From: Novosphingobium barchaimii LL02
Lineage (GTDB): Bacteria > Pseudomonadota > Alphaproteobacteria > Sphingomonadales > Sphingomonadaceae
Length of the DNA stretch: 64,000 nt
Direction of reading: 5' to 3'
Assembly (NCBI RefSeq): GCF_001046635.1
Contig: NZ_KQ130459.1
Location: forward strand, 1-64,000
Shown here: positions 6,061 to 59,910 of the stretch, one piece after another
Numbering within the stretch: position 1 is the stretch's first letter
Layout of the letters: every line of letters starts with the position of its first letter
Notes under the pieces: generated by a model
The model's database searches: none
Told to the model about the DNA's origin: nothing
Seen by the model: only the letters and a program-made list of their open reading frames with translations
Translations under genes and position numbers: made by a program

Positions 6061-6189
6061 CCCGCGCAGTTCGCGCAGGAAGCGGGCCGATGATCTCCTG
6101 CTGATGATGACGCTTGCGATTTGAGAATCTCGACCATATGAACGCGGCATTCGTGCATCGGCCATAAGCCGTCCGCACGGGTAAAGATC

Positions 6190-6475
6190 GCGTCGGTTCC
6201 CCGAAAGGGGATTAAAACGGGAATGCGGTGCGGGTGGTTCTCCATCTAAATCCGCAGCTGTCCCTGCAACTGTAAGTGGCGAGCGCGATATACATGTGCG
6301 GACGGCATAGCGCCGAGCCGCCAGCCACTGGGCCGGACGCTGTAACATGCGAGGCCTGGGAAGGCCGTATATCAAGCGATGACCCATGAGCCAGGAGACC
6401 TGCCGGCGTCTGGTCGCTCTTGCCTTGGTCCAGGGGATGGCCGCGGCACGGTGAACTCCGTCTGAGCGACGAACG
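6190..6475 (+). promoter_or_regulatory. Cobalamin riboswitch with expression platform (first copy)
   Basis: Aptamer signatures are in order: GGGAATGCGGTGCGGG, then the B12-box-like GCAGCTGTCCCTGCAACTG, GCCACTGGGCCGG, GGCCTGGGAAGGCC, and GAGCCAGGAGACCTGCC. After about 6410 comes an expression platform with GTCGCTC (6413-6419) complementary to GAGCGAC (6464-6470), and a small inner ACGG/CCGT hairpin. It precedes the TBDR at 6600. Adenosyl- or other cobalamin would be expected to lower expression of that gene and its PepSY neighbour. Confidence 0.93.
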
Positions 6476-16917: not shown

Positions 16918-17000
16918 ACGCTTGCCAGCCCATACGCCCGTCGGTATCCGCTGTGAGGTTCCGTGAAAGCCCGCAAGGGTCAAGCGGGCAATGATCGCGC

Positions 17001-17273
17001 CGGTGCCTCGCAAGAGGCTTAAAACGGGAAGGCGGTGCGGGCTTCACGGCCCAATTCCGCTGCTGTCCCTGCAACTGTAAGCGGTGAGCGCGATGCACAT
17101 CGCCTGTCCCCCAGCGGGGACGGGCAGCCACTGGGCCGGACGCTGAAACATGCGAGGCCTGGGAAGGCCGTGCATCGAGCGGTGACCCGCGAGCCAGGAG
17201 ACCTGCCGGCGTCTGGTCGCTCTTGCCTTGGCCCAGGGGATGGCCGCGGCACGGTGAACTCCGTCTGAGCGAC
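17001..17273 (+). promoter_or_regulatory. Cobalamin riboswitch with expression platform (second long copy)
   Basis: It has the same elements as the copy at 6190: GGGAAGGCGGTGCGGG, GCTGTCCCTGCAACTG, GCCACTGGGCCGG, GGCCTGGGAAGGCC and GAGCCAGGAGACCTGCC. The platform is nearly identical to the first copy, including GTCGCTC (17216-17222) complementary to GAGCGAC (17267-17273). It precedes cobW-cobN-cobO-bluB. The two sequences diverge directly after the platform. Confidence 0.93.
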
Positions 17274-17399: not shown

Positions 17400-18449
17400 T
17401 TGAGCAAAGTGCCGACCACCGTCATCACCGGCTTCCTGGGCGCGGGCAAGACCACGCTCATCCGCCATCTGCTGCAGAACGCGAAGGGCCGCCGCCTCGC
17501 GCTTATCATCAACGAGTTCGGCGACGTCGGCGTCGACGGCGAACTGGTGAAGGGCTGCAACGACGAAGCCTGCCCCGAAGACGACATCGTCGAACTGGCC
17601 AACGGCTGCATCTGCTGCACCGTTGCCGACGATTTCCTGCCCACCATGATGAAGCTGCTGGAACGGCCCAACCCGCCCGAGCACATCATCATCGAAACTT
17701 CCGGCCTGGCCCTGCCCAAGCCGCTGGTGAAGGCGTTCCAGTGGCCCGACATCCGCACCCGCGCAACGGTGGACGGCGTGGTCGCCCTGATCGACGCGGA
17801 TGCGGTGGCAGCTGGCCGCTTCGCCACCGACGAGGTCGCGCTGGCCGCAGCCCGCGCCGCCGATCCCACGCTGGATCACGATTCGCCGCTTGAGGAGCTG
17901 TTCGAAGAGCAGCTGGCCTGCGCCGACATGGTCGTCCTCAACAAGACCGACCTCGTCGATGCGGACGGCCTTGCCCGCGTCGAAGCGCTGGTGCTGGCGG
18001 AAACCCGCCCCGGCGTGAAAATCGTGCGCGCGGACCACGGCGCCGTAGACATCGCCGCCCTGCTGGGCATCACCGCCGCCGCCGAGGACGACCTCGACAG
18101 CCGCAGGTCGCACATCGACGGGCTGGACGAAAGCCACGACCATGATGACTTCGACAGCTTCGTGGCCCAGGGTGGCGACGTGGCAGACCTGGACGCACTG
18201 CTCGCCCGCATGGCCGCGCTGATCGCCCAGCACGACGTGCTGCGCATCAAGGGCATGGTCGCCGTCGCCGGCAAGCCCGGCCGCCTGATCGTGCAGGCCG
18301 TCGGCCCGCGCATCCAGCACTTCTACGACCGTGCCTGGGGCAGCGCCGAGCCGCGCCGTACCCAGCTTGTGGTGATCGGCCAGAAGGGCCTCGACCGCGC
18401 CGCAATCGAGGCCGGGCTGACCGATGTTCTCGGTGCCGTTCCAGCCTGA
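17400..18449 (+). CDS. cobW: CobW-type G3E GTPase (cobalt delivery)
   Basis: Metal-chaperone GTPase of 349 residues. Walker A is GFLGAGKT (11-18), the metal-binding CxCC motif is GCICC (70-73), the guanine motif is NKTD, and there is a His/Asp-rich segment (DESHDHDDFDSF) before the CobW C-terminal domain. It is thought to load Co(II) onto the CobN cobaltochelatase. Start TTG 17400 follows GGGAGAAG; an ATG is lacking near the conserved N-terminus. The stop overlaps the cobN start (TGATG), so the pair is coupled and under the B12 riboswitch. Confidence 0.93.
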   Translation: MSKVPTTVITGFLGAGKTTLIRHLLQNAKGRRLALIINEFGDVGVDGELVKGCNDEACPEDDIVELANGCICCTVADDFLPTMMKLLERPNPPEHIIIETSGLALPKPLVKAFQWPDIRTRATVDGVVALIDADAVAAGRFATDEVALAAARAADPTLDHDSPLEELFEEQLACADMVVLNKTDLVDADGLARVEALVLAETRPGVKIVRADHGAVDIAALLGITAAAEDDLDSRRSHIDGLDESHDHDDFDSFVAQGGDVADLDALLARMAALIAQHDVLRIKGMVAVAGKPGRLIVQAVGPRIQHFYDRAWGSAEPRRTQLVVIGQKGLDRAAIEAGLTDVLGAVPA

Positions 18450-21400
18450 TGCACCTGCTTTCCGCCACTCCGGGAACCATCTCCAACGGCGATGAGGCGA
18501 TCGACCTCGACCAGCCGCCCGGCGACATCGTGATCCTGACGGTGGCGGACAGCGAACTGGCGTGCTTCGCCAAGGCAGCGGCGCAGTTGCCGCAAGGCGC
18601 CGCCGGCGGCGCCCCCAGCGTGCGCCTCGCCAACCTGCTGCAGCTGAAGCACCCCTATTCGATCGACCTCTATGTCGAGAAGGTGATCGCCCCCGCCAAA
18701 TTCGTCTGCGTGATCCTGCTGGGCGGTAAAAGCTACTGGCCTTACGGCATCGACGAGATCGCCCTGATCGCCCGCGAACGCGGCATCGCCTTCGCCGCCA
18801 TCGCGGACGGGCGCGAGGACGATCCCGCGCTGGACCGTGCCTGCACCCTGCCTGCCGCTCAGGTCGAGCATTTGCGCGACTACCTGCGCCAGGGCGGCAC
18901 CGCGAACGCGCTGTCGTTCCTGCGCACCGCGGCGCGGGTAATCGGCCATGACTGCGGCACGCCCGACGATCCCGTGCCCGTCGCCGATGCCGGGCTGTAC
19001 CTCTCCGGCGTAGAGCGCCCCGGCCTCGCCGACCTGCGCGCCCGCTGGACGCCCGGCGCTCCCACCGCGCTGCTGGTGTTCTACCGCGCGCTGATGATAG
19101 CGGGCACGCTGGACGCGGTGGACGCGATGGTGGCGGACCTGCAATCACGCGGACTGAATGTCGCCGCCGTCCATGTGCGCGCTTTACGCGAACCCTTTGC
19201 CATCGACTGGCTGCGCGGGCTGATGGACGAGATCGCTCCCGACGTCATCGTCAACGCCACCAGCTTCGCGTCCTCCTCCTCGGGCGAGCCGCGCACCCCC
19301 GGCGTGCTGGAACGCGCCGACTGCCCGATCCTGCAGGTCGCCTTCGCCGGGGTGGAGGAAGCCGACTGGCTGGCCGCCGCGCGCGGCCTTGGCCCGCGCG
19401 ACCTTGCCATGAACGTGGCCCTGCCCGAGGTCGACGGGCGCATCTTCACCCGCGCCGTCGCCTTCAAGGCCGCGCAGCACTTTGACGAAGTGACCCAGTG
19501 CGGCATCGTCGTGCCCCGCGTCGCGCCCAGCCGCGTGGCCTTCGTCGCCCGCCTCGCCGCCAACTGGGCGCACCTGCGCCGCACTGCGCCCGCGAAACGC
19601 CGCGTGGCCTTGATCCTCGCCAACTATCCCAACCGCGATGGGCGGATCGGCAACGGCGTCGGCCTCGACACCCCCGCCAGCGCCGCTTCGATACTCGCAG
19701 CCTTGCGCGGTGCGGGCTACGACGTCGGCGCGGCCCCGCAGAACGGCGCGGGCCTGATGGCGCTGATGACCGGCGGCGTGACCAACGACCTGACCTCGCT
19801 GGACCGCCCCGGTGAGATAGCTCTGCCCCTCACCGACTACCACGCCGCCTTCGCGTCCGTGCCTGAAACCGCGCGCGGCCTGATGCTGGACCGCTGGGGC
19901 GCGCCCGAGGCCGACCCATTCGTGAAGGACGGCGCGTTCCGCCTGCCCGTACACCGCTTCGGCAATGTCGCCCTCGCGGTTCAACCGGCGCGCGGCTACA
20001 ATATCGATCCCAAGGCCAGCTACCACGACCCGGCCCTGCCCCCGCCGCACGCCTACCTTGCCTTCCACATCTGGCTGGAGCACCATTTCGGCGCGCAGGC
20101 GCTGGTCCATGTCGGCAAGCACGGCAATCTGGAATGGCTGCCCGGCAAGGCCATCTCGCTATCGGAAGACTGCTTCCCCGAGATTTGCGCCGGGCCGCTG
20201 CCGCAGCTCTACCCCTTCATCGTCAACGATCCCGGCGAGGGCACGCAGGCCAAGCGCCGCATCTCCGCCGTCGTGATCGACCACCTGACGCCCCCCCTTA
20301 CCCGCGCCGAAAGCTATGGTCCGCTCAAGCACCTCGAAGCGCTGGTCGACGAGTACTACCTTGCCGCCGGCATGGACCCGCGCCGTCTGGAGCGATTGCG
20401 ACGCGACATCCTCGATCTTGCGCGCGGTCAGGGGCTGGATCAGGACGCCGGGGCGCTGGGCGACGATGACGATGCGCTTTCAGCCATCGACAACTACTTG
20501 TGCGAACTGAAGGAACTGCAGATCCGCGACGGGCTGCACGTCTTTGGCCACTCGCCGCAAGGGCGGCTACGGCGCGACCTGCTGGTTGCGCTGGCCCGGA
20601 CCCCGCGCGGGTATGACAAGCCGGGGCAGGCGTCCCTGCTGCGCGCGATGGCGCAGGATTTTGGGTTTGCGTTCGATCCGCTCGACTGCCGGATGGGCGA
20701 TGCCTGGGCTGGGACGCGCCCAGCGGTGCTGGAGGCGGTGTCGGCCGATCCGTGGCGCACCTTGGGCGATACGGTAGAGCGGCTTGAGCTGCTGGCGGCG
20801 GCTTGGATAGAGGCCCTTGAACCGGGCCGCGACGCTTTCCCATCCCCCCGCCGTCACCCTGAACTTGTTTCAGGGTCCATCTCTCCGCCCGCACCGACGG
20901 CTGATGGCCACACATGGACCCTGAAACAAGCTCAGGGTGACGAAGCGGGGGTTGGTGAGGTGGGGGCAAAGACCGCCGCTGTCCTTGCCGAGATCGCAAC
21001 CAATCTCGCCCCCCGCGTAGACCGCTGCGGTGATGCCGAAACGCAGGCCCTCCTTGCCGGACTCGAAGGCCGGTTCGTCCTGCCCGGCCCCTCCGGCGCC
21101 CCTACAAGAGGCCGCCCCGACGTGCTGCCCACGGGGCGCAATTTCTATTCGGTGGACACCCGCGCCGTGCCCACCGCCGTCGCGTGGGACCTGGGCTACA
21201 AGTCCGCGCAGCTCCTCGTCGAGGACTACCTCCAGCGCGAGGGCGAGTACCCCAAGGCCATGGCGCTTTCCGCCTGGGGCACCGCCAACATGCGCACCGG
21301 CGGCGACGACATCGCGCAGGCCCTCGCGCTGATGGGCGTGCGCCCGCGCTGGGAGTGGACCTCCGGCCGCGTCACCGGCTTCGAGATGATGACGGTGGTG

Positions 21401-22315
21401 GAACTGGGCCGCCCGCGCGTGGACGTGACCTTGCGCGTCTCGGGCTTTTTCCGCGATGCCTTCCCCGAACAGATCGACCTGATCGACAGCGCCGCGCGCG
21501 CGGTGATGGCGCTGGAGGAACCCGAAGGCGACAACCCCGCAGCGGAGCGCCGCCGCGCCGAACTGGCCGCTCTGGTCGAAGCCGGCGAGGACGCGGCCAC
21601 CGCCGCCCGCCGCACCGGAGCGCGCGTTTTCGGATCGAAGCCGGGCGCGTATGGCGCCGGCCTTCAGGCCATGATCGACGAGAAAATCTGGCACGAACGC
21701 GCCGATCTCGCGAGCGTGTACCTCGACTGGGGCAGCTATGCCTACGGCGCGGGCGTGGAAGGCGAGGCCGAGCGCGAGTTGTTCGCCGCGCGCCTCACCC
21801 AGACCGACGCCGTGGTCCAGAACCAGGACAACCGCGAACACGACCTGCTCGACAGCGATGATTACTACCAGTTCGAGGGCGGCATCGCCTCCGCCGTGGA
21901 GCACCTGAAAGGCCGCAAGGTGATCTCGTATCACAACGACCACTCGCGCCCCGAACGCCCTGTCGTCCGCACGCTGGAGGACGAGATCGGCCGCGTGGTG
22001 CGGGCGCGCGTCACCAATCCCAAATGGATCGCAGGCGTGATGCGCCACGGCTACAAGGGCGCGTTCGAGATCGCCGCCTCGGTCGATTACCTGTTCGCTT
22101 TCGCCGCCACGACCCATGCGGTGAAGGACCACCACTTCGACGCCGTCCACGCCGCCTTCATCGAGGACGAGGCTGTCCGCGACTTCATGGCGCAGGCCAA
22201 CCCGGCGGCTTTACGCGAAACCGCCGCCCGCCTCGCCGAAGCGCTGGAGCGCGGATTGTGGAAACCCAGATCAAACAGCGCGGGCGTCCTGCTCGCCGAA
22301 ATTCCAGGAGCTTGA
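18449..22315 (+). CDS. cobN: Cobaltochelatase subunit CobN
   Basis: Large subunit (1288 residues) of the aerobic ATP-dependent cobaltochelatase that inserts Co2+ into hydrogenobyrinic acid a,c-diamide. Family hallmarks include VHVGKHGNLEWLPGK, the TGRNFYSVDTRAVPT block, NMRTGGDDIAQALAL and WIAGVMRHGYKGAFEIAA. Length is in the normal range, but residues about 802-832 are an extra segment encoded by a palindromic element (see repeat at 20852) lying between conserved blocks. CobS and CobT are not in this window and must be elsewhere if the enzyme works. Confidence 0.95.
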   Translation: MHLLSATPGTISNGDEAIDLDQPPGDIVILTVADSELACFAKAAAQLPQGAAGGAPSVRLANLLQLKHPYSIDLYVEKVIAPAKFVCVILLGGKSYWPYGIDEIALIARERGIAFAAIADGREDDPALDRACTLPAAQVEHLRDYLRQGGTANALSFLRTAARVIGHDCGTPDDPVPVADAGLYLSGVERPGLADLRARWTPGAPTALLVFYRALMIAGTLDAVDAMVADLQSRGLNVAAVHVRALREPFAIDWLRGLMDEIAPDVIVNATSFASSSSGEPRTPGVLERADCPILQVAFAGVEEADWLAAARGLGPRDLAMNVALPEVDGRIFTRAVAFKAAQHFDEVTQCGIVVPRVAPSRVAFVARLAANWAHLRRTAPAKRRVALILANYPNRDGRIGNGVGLDTPASAASILAALRGAGYDVGAAPQNGAGLMALMTGGVTNDLTSLDRPGEIALPLTDYHAAFASVPETARGLMLDRWGAPEADPFVKDGAFRLPVHRFGNVALAVQPARGYNIDPKASYHDPALPPPHAYLAFHIWLEHHFGAQALVHVGKHGNLEWLPGKAISLSEDCFPEICAGPLPQLYPFIVNDPGEGTQAKRRISAVVIDHLTPPLTRAESYGPLKHLEALVDEYYLAAGMDPRRLERLRRDILDLARGQGLDQDAGALGDDDDALSAIDNYLCELKELQIRDGLHVFGHSPQGRLRRDLLVALARTPRGYDKPGQASLLRAMAQDFGFAFDPLDCRMGDAWAGTRPAVLEAVSADPWRTLGDTVERLELLAAAWIEALEPGRDAFPSPRRHPELVSGSISPPAPTADGHTWTLKQAQGDEAGVGEVGAKTAAVLAEIATNLAPRVDRCGDAETQALLAGLEGRFVLPGPSGAPTRGRPDVLPTGRNFYSVDTRAVPTAVAWDLGYKSAQLLVEDYLQREGEYPKAMALSAWGTANMRTGGDDIAQALALMGVRPRWEWTSGRVTGFEMMTVVELGRPRVDVTLRVSGFFRDAFPEQIDLIDSAARAVMALEEPEGDNPAAERRRAELAALVEAGEDAATAARRTGARVFGSKPGAYGAGLQAMIDEKIWHERADLASVYLDWGSYAYGAGVEGEAERELFAARLTQTDAVVQNQDNREHDLLDSDDYYQFEGGIASAVEHLKGRKVISYHNDHSRPERPVVRTLEDEIGRVVRARVTNPKWIAGVMRHGYKGAFEIAASVDYLFAFAATTHAVKDHHFDAVHAAFIEDEAVRDFMAQANPAALRETAARLAEALERGLWKPRSNSAGVLLAEIPGA
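20852..20942 (+). repeat. In-frame palindromic element inside cobN
   Basis: A 29-base left arm (20852-20880) and a 29-base right arm (20914-20942) are inverted copies with one mismatch, separated by 33 bases. Each arm also contains its own small dyad (CCCTGAA...TTCAGGG). Translated within CobN, it reads RHPELVSGS...WTLKQAQGD, a peptide pair that is familiar from dispersed palindromic repeats in sphingomonads. It keeps the CobN frame open and sits in a loop between conserved domains. Confidence 0.88.
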
Positions 22316-45906: not shown

Positions 45907-45922
45907 GTTGCCACGTGGCAAC
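45907..45922. repeat. parS-like palindrome 1
   Basis: GTTGCCACGTGGCAAC, a perfect 16-base palindrome with the CACGTG core typical of ParB sites, 39 bases upstream of the parB start codon. Confidence 0.8.
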
Positions 45923-46017
45923 CGCGCCGAAGAGGCCCTCCCCTGCAAATCAGGCAATCACCCCGCTGCGTTGCGGAAGGGTGGTTAGCCATTTGATAAA
46001 ACGTCATTTTCAAGTTC

Positions 46018-46033
46018 GTTGCCACGTGGCAAC
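46018..46033. repeat. parS-like palindrome 2
   Basis: Identical copy of GTTGCCACGTGGCAAC, 3 bases beyond the parA stop. The two centres are 111 bases apart. Confidence 0.8.
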
Positions 46034-59848: not shown

Positions 59849-59854
59849 GGTTTT

Positions 59855-59897
59855 CGCCCGTTATCGGGAAGGGTGACCCCGTTCCCGATAACGGGCG
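59855..59897 (+). repeat. Inverted repeat between TBDR and SnoaL gene
   Basis: CGCCCGTTATCGGGA (59855-59869) and TCCCGATAACGGGCG (59883-59897) are perfect 15-base arms with a 13-base loop. It starts 6 bases after the TBDR stop and ends 13 bases before the next start. No U-tract, so partial termination or mRNA stabilisation is more likely than a full stop. Confidence 0.75.
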
Positions 59898-59910
59898 ATG
59901 GAGAGACGCG

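Follow-up and report, generated by a model that had tools for sequence, protein, structure and literature searches.

The window analysed here, that is, the whole stretch of 64,000 nucleotides from Novosphingobium barchaimii LL02, carries on its plus strand the cobN gene (18449–22315), which encodes the large subunit of cobaltochelatase (1288 amino acids). The product matches Pfam family PF02514 over residues 144–1276 (1241.6 bits) and was also matched by phmmer to a solved cobaltochelatase subunit CobN (PDB 9uk9_A). A cobalamin riboswitch (Rfam RF00174, 94.9 bits) is located at 16989–17224 on the same strand, 5′ of the cobW-like and cobN genes, and a second RF00174 riboswitch occurs in the window at 6177–6421. 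Within cobN lies a palindrome of 91 nt (20852–20942, plus strand). An earlier note on this DNA had described two 29-base inverted arms with one mismatch and a 33-base spacer, adding about 30 residues to the protein without a break of the frame. Both statements hold: the arms are located at 20852–20880 and 20914–20942, the spacer at 20881–20913, and the palindrome encodes residues 802–831 in a frame that remains open through to the CobN stop codon.

The palindrome has the anatomy of a head-to-head dimer of two REP units, each of which forms a small hairpin by itself with an unpaired CGTC tag at one end. In the left unit (20852–20880, plus strand), the tag CGTC (20852–20855) is followed by a perfect 8-bp stem (20856–20863 and 20869–20876; ACCCTGAA/TTCAGGGT) closed by the 5-nt loop CTTGT (20864–20868), and by the tail CCA (20877–20879); the anatomy script prints an equivalent 9/3 division of this unit with one mismatch. 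The right unit (20914–20942, minus strand) is reversed, with the tail TGG (20915–20917, CCA read in reverse), an 8-bp stem with one mismatch (20918–20925 and 20931–20938), a 5-nt loop (20926–20930), and the tag GACG (20939–20942), the complement of CGTC. The inverted repeat continues imperfectly into the flanks (20839–20955; 42-nt arms, 86% complementary), and this extension is at most a candidate part of the element; flanking complementarity is no general feature of the 23 copies examined in a related genome (G244). The element begins with a complete codon (CGT, residue 802), and because its 91 nt amount to 30 codons plus 1 nt, two more nucleotides (mod 3) from the flanks are needed for the in-frame state. 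A search of the window for the arm motif matched these two arms (0.00 expected, 100 shuffles) and nothing else. A minus-strand ORF at 20325–20999 overlaps the element and is probably spurious; since the element is palindromic, this frame encodes a near-identical peptide (HPELVSGS...WTLKQVQGD).

CGTC-tagged REPs were defined by Di Nocera et al. (2013, PMC3733652), in the text of which they are described as units with a CGTC tag, a stem of 8–9 bp, a loop of 4–5 nt, and a CCA tail, occurring mostly as dimers with the tags outside (HH), mainly in alphaproteobacteria, including sphingomonads, and mostly in intergenic regions; the same text reports no dedicated or linked transposase. Set against this description, the window element is, as far as its sequence goes, a dimer of the published superfamily and CGTC-2-like, with the same tag, 8-bp stem, 5-nt loop, CCA tail, and HH arrangement. 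A difference is found in the stem: complementary A/T is stated to occur “almost invariably” at stem positions 1 and 2 of CGTC-2 (PMC3733652), whereas in the window position 1 is A-T and position 2 is C-G. Copies with CATCC in a near relative (G244) have A-T followed by T-A. The text further assigns the Rickettsia elements RPE-6 and RPE-4 to CGTC-1 and CGTC-4, respectively, and because they thus belong to the same superfamily, the likeness to Rickettsia palindromic elements drawn in the earlier note is more than an analogy.

The inserted residues lie in a loop of CobN (residues 789–838; 20813–20962, plus strand) that comprises only 8 residues in 9uk9_A, and the phmmer alignment to that chain breaks at query positions 788/839, equivalent to chain positions 793/802. 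In an AF2 model of residues 560–1288, which is of moderate quality (mean pLDDT 68.3, pTM 0.54), a helix (772–788) is followed by residues 794–836 with pLDDT below 50 and then by a second helix (840–872), so that the insert falls in a low-confidence stretch between two helices. By prediction, the loop is a floppy linker, probably exposed and disordered.

CobN proteins for comparison were taken from named genomes and from scans of the family of genome G001 (14 of 169), of its genus (25 of 195), and of the genus of G011 (36 of 94). Two partial proteins (L040 and L044) were dropped, and the removal of 15 duplicates reduced 98 sequences to 83 distinct ones. A palindrome is present at the loop in 24 of the 83, and no clear insert was found in 57, whose loops measure 23–30 residues between the same two conserved blocks, compared with 69 in the window; approximately 40–45 residues are thus extra in the window, 30 of them from the palindrome. 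The remaining two, L033, whose loop probably contains a decayed REP, and L101, with a 30-residue loop and no palindrome, are counted neither among the 24 nor in the 81-row family count used below. The frame is open for at least 1276 amino acids in all 24 carriers, many of which are isolate genomes and some draft genomes or MAGs. Relatives therefore do not all share the segment; some lack it, and others have a different one. In a class-wide sample (29 of 31 matches, G508 and G534 being left out), none of the 29 CobN proteins has an insert at the loop, and loop lengths are within 3 residues of one another.

The 24 palindromes were sorted by eye into seven families. F1 (HPELVSGS) comprises the window, L058, L003, and L071; F2 (SLSKD) comprises L001, L004, L028, L030, L042, and L064; F3 (VRDD-type) comprises L002, L027, L060, and a half unit in L076; F4 (GDD-type) comprises L015, L021, L107, and half units in L014, L035, and L037; F5 (ESWDL-type) comprises L017 and L019; and F6 and F7 are represented by L041 and L059, respectively. 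F1 and F3 have stems of 8 and loops of 5 (CGTC-2-like), and F4 and F5 have stems of 8 and loops of 4 (CGTC-1-like). F2, tested on L001, has neither the CGTC tag nor such a stem, and F6 and F7 also appear by eye to be without the tag. A search of Rfam with 8 loci (E up to 1) returned no family for the palindromes and gave only sub-threshold microRNA matches for L001 and L041. Several of these families are dispersed in their hosts: F3 arms number 106 in G004, 39 in G003, and 141 in G237; F5 arms 47 in G014 and 5 in G013; and F2 arms 91 in G017, 10 in G005, 9 in G001, and 3 in the F2-bearing host G265. F4 arms are scarce in four host genomes (0–4 exact matches per genome, no mismatch being allowed). 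In several cases, the family found in the loop is thus abundant in the same genome, with G265 and the F4 hosts as exceptions.

With regard to the reading frame, 15 tagged elements in the CobN loop were measured, and each of them is read in phase 0 and has a length of 1 mod 3. The constant phase (CGT-CAY, Arg-His) was considered as a sign of a fixed target and dropped: phase 0 is the sole stop-free phase for 9 of the 15, so the constancy is mostly due to stop codons. In the other 6, a further phase is open as well but goes unused.

Compared with a reference CobN (L005), insertions of 12 residues or more are confined to two sites, the window's loop and a second loop following the motif TNDLTSL. 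The second loop contains in-frame palindromes in four sequences, L010 (4390–4477), L017 (4354–4450), L041, and L101, and short SLSK-like stretches are present at this site in L015, L021, and L100.

A quick protein tree was built without the columns of the loop and the second site. The fewest changes on this tree are 13 for presence or absence (83 rows) and 16 by family (81 rows), counts that do not separate gain from loss; per family, they are 4 for F1, 4 for F2, 3 for F3, 3 for F4, 2 for F5, and 1 each for F6 and F7. At least seven gains would be needed if the sorting into seven families holds. A single clade for the four F1 carriers was rejected (p-AU 7.7e-5). Over the kept CobN columns, the window and L001 share 97% identity, yet they carry F1 and F2, respectively, and L058 carries F1; a first tree places L001 nearer to the window than L058, which would imply replacement of one family by another. 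A DNA tree weakly joins the window with L058 (72/64 support) and keeps the window-L001 alternative (p-AU 0.32). L003 (F1) lies within a clade rich in F2, and L059 (F7) lies beside F3. The contig of L008/L067 bears the title “Actinobacteria bacterium 21-64-8”, and its CobN groups among the sphingomonads in the tree; the genome is perhaps mislabelled or mis-binned.

The presence of different families in such close CobN relatives (the window and L001, L003, L059) is what would be expected if the loop were a true targeting hotspot, whose DNA or resident palindrome attracts further palindromes through structure-specific cleavage, template switching, or repeat recombination, the elements replacing one another. 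REP dimers inside target palindromes have been described for other species in the text of PMC3733652. On the other hand, insertion points differ by several residues along the loop between carriers (judged by eye), and the second CobN loop is also invaded, both of which speak against a hotspot. This explanation is considered rather unlikely; it is kept as a candidate since tolerance alone does not explain the choice of this loop.

The copies of F1 in relatives bear on the same question and on the origin of the element. F1 arms were searched with two patterns that differ in stringency, so that the counts are not strictly comparable: allowing up to 2 mismatches, 24 + 26 (about 50) were found in G244 and 9 + 8 (17) in G085; allowing up to 3, 35 + 37 (72) were found in G002, 16 + 15 (31) in G004, 4 each in G001 and G003, and 0 in G005. 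Backward control patterns gave 0 matches. The earlier note's attribution of HPELVSGS and WTLKQxQGD to dispersed sphingomonad repeats is hence borne out at the DNA level. In G244, 23 F1 dimers with tags outside were examined (one, L150, was placed by hand, as the pattern had missed its left arm), and only the copy in cobN lies in a spanning ORF, defined as a frame across the dimer with 40 codons on each side (1 of 23). Their lengths with tags are 90 (8 copies), 136 (8), 91 (2), 92 (2), 86, 135, and 132 bp, the main classes being 90 and 136 bp; 10 of the 23 are 1 mod 3, the length class that is read through in cobN. Among 20 further dimers in G002, 3 are within open frames, none of them counted as a convincing gene: Pfam gave no match (E ≤ 0.1) for two of the frames, and the third dimer, an uncertain case, is located 5′ of an MFS domain that shares its frame. 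In G244, F1 is a multicopy, mainly head-to-head, and mainly intergenic repeat. Downstream of the cobN copy in G244, at a distance of about 2 kb, lies another F1 dimer (L154, 1589–1718; G244:C2:1305788-1305917), and one tail-to-tail F1 pair with tags inside was observed in the same genome near 1504–1589 of L130, as against the 23 dimers with tags outside.

The rarity of coding insertions of the family elsewhere, among those examined, would favour a hotspot. Against it, the flanks of the 23 G244 copies show no signal of inverted complementarity (6.57 versus 6.52 in re-paired controls) or of the direct repeats expected from target-site duplication (0.39 versus 0.45). Because neither signature is present in these copies, insertion is inferred from presence and absence in relatives. 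The designation MITE fits poorly: inverted arms are present, but there is no direct-repeat signal over the 23 copies.

REPINs of the Pseudomonas type, which are associated with RAYT transposases, are inverted pairs of small hairpins with a GTAG tag. The window element, whose two small hairpins are inverted to each other and dispersed together, with length classes of 90 and 136 bp, resembles them and might accordingly be thought of as a REPIN mobilised by a RAYT (Y1 transposase) in the classical REP/RAYT system. Its tag is, however, CGTC and not GTAG, and no linked RAYT was found: the transposase domain PF01797 occurs in 6 of 25 genomes and is absent from G002, which has 72 arms, and from G001; four specific arm patterns are absent at all 11 RAYT loci (about 1.5 kb on each side), 3 of which contain a loose GC hairpin pattern; and the text of PMC3733652 links no transposase to CGTC REPs. 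Mobilisation by a RAYT is, therefore, quite improbable. The description of the element as mobile-like in the earlier note stands as regards its multicopy occurrence in relatives, from which mobility may be surmised; the transposase search covered PF01797 (Y1) and gave no link.

The comparison with the Rickettsia elements RPE-4, RPE-6, and RPE-1 shows likenesses and one difference. Both systems have palindromic repeats in frame in conserved genes, and an RPE-like mode of working (in-frame, translated, functional) may be predicted from the open frame and the purifying selection on CobN. In Rickettsia, many genes are decorated, whereas in G244 cobN is the only spanning ORF among the 23 dimers, so that protein coding is not the usual state of this mostly intergenic repeat. 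Intragenic REPs have been reported, including some at nearly the same recB position in Xanthomonas campestris and X. oryzae (PMC3733652). The recB case is similar in having different REPs at about one place of one gene; as described in the text of that article, it involves two species, compared with 24 carriers and seven families in CobN.

A palindrome finder was run with codon-shuffled controls. In the 64-kb window, it returned 3 palindromes (0 in the shuffled copy), and the one in cobN had the top score, 26 compared with 16 and 17. Two weaker inverted repeats in the window (45907–46033 and 59854–59898) have arms of 16–17 nt and were assigned to none of the F families. Across 46 loci (429 kb, score at least 18), 18 palindromes were found, compared with 0 after codon shuffling; 10 are in CobN (8 in the loop and 2 at the second site), and 8 are elsewhere, 4 of which overlap frames of at least 200 amino acids (3 on the minus strand). 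Because its criteria are tighter than those of the family list, the finder overlooks some inserts. When applied to 400 kb from G244 and 400 kb from G265 (score at least 16), it found 11 and 11 palindromes, with 0 and 0 after shuffling, and 3 of 11 and 4 of 11, respectively, overlap frames of at least 150 amino acids. By visual comparison, a single one of those seven (L175:729) is similar to the dispersed families; its 260-residue frame was judged spurious from its arginine-rich make-up alone.

Selection on CobN was estimated by simple Nei-Gojobori counts, in which the loop contributes few sites. Outside the loop, dN/dS is 0.078 for the window and L058, 0.066 for the window and L001, and approximately 0.07–0.09 among the three; a ratio of about 0.07 means that this part of CobN is under strong purifying selection. 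It could be argued that cobN is decaying or mis-assembled and that, with the gene having lost its importance, the insert does no harm, a reading to which the draft genomes and MAGs among the carriers would lend something. The low ratios, the long frames in all 24 carriers, the many isolate genomes, and the cobalamin riboswitch upstream all contradict it, and it is barely credible.

For the F1 loop, dN/dS between the window and L058 is 0.72, and dS is 0.23, compared with 0.30 for the gene; these values would fit an inherited, nearly unconstrained segment. For F2 pairs, the loop ratios are 0.19, 0.30, and 0.59, each on 2–6 non-synonymous differences. These ratios bear on a possible adaptive use, in which the segment or its mRNA hairpin alters the assembly, activity, or expression of CobN and is favoured. 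Recurrence across seven families, the frame of the window-L058 insert remaining open over a dS of about 0.3, and the proposal in the text of PMC3733652 that coding REPs modify proteins are all compatible with such a use. However, the sequences of the families differ, 57 of 83 CobN proteins manage without a clear insert, and the window-L058 loop is near neutral, though the F2 pairs are lower. An adaptive role thus appears improbable.

The explanation that we favour, and regard as probable, is that a dispersed REP dimer was inserted into an ancestral cobN and persists in a disordered, tolerant linker, and that the same loop has repeatedly accepted elements of other families. A non-autonomous repeat would be copied in trans by some enzyme and would insert widely, and nearly all coding insertions would be lost. 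The CobN linker, presumed to be exposed, tolerant, and nearly neutral, would be one of the few sites in coding DNA at which a copy that has no stop codon and preserves the frame does no harm, and copies would accumulate there across species. For the window, a single insertion into the cobN of an ancestor common to this strain and G244 (locus L058), in a stop-free phase and a suitable length class, is the most likely history. The elements are most likely selfish repeats, their survival in frame being due to a loop in which extra residues are tolerated. It is doubtful, though conceivable, that the loop is instead a genuine landing pad, with families targeting or replacing one another, or that the inserts benefit the host, in which case the enzyme would be a capture site for small mobile DNA.

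The element itself is of a known kind, and the recurrence of several families at one loop is apparently the unreported part. Such recurrence is not described in the passages of PMC3733652 consulted, and the terms cobN, cobalt, and chelatase are absent from its main text. No report of it was found among the titles and abstract openings covered or in passages of PMC2229807, PMC10969869, and PMC5082802, a weak survey that extended to a minority of the subscription papers.

At the CobN loop, one site of one enzyme has been entered repeatedly by different families, in phylogenetically separate events, and the many unoccupied sites allow comparison. The case bears on how REP-type repeats move without a transposase, and coding insertions are, to our knowledge, usually single cases. 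The loop can be used as a natural experiment to learn at which places repeats insert, which changes a protein tolerates, and whether the repeats remain active. For annotation, it should be borne in mind that HPELVSGS-, SLSKD-, and RGDD-type peptides in sphingomonad proteins can be translated repeat DNA. In these bacteria, the loop of CobN appears to be a natural site where hairpin-forming repeat DNA can insert safely.
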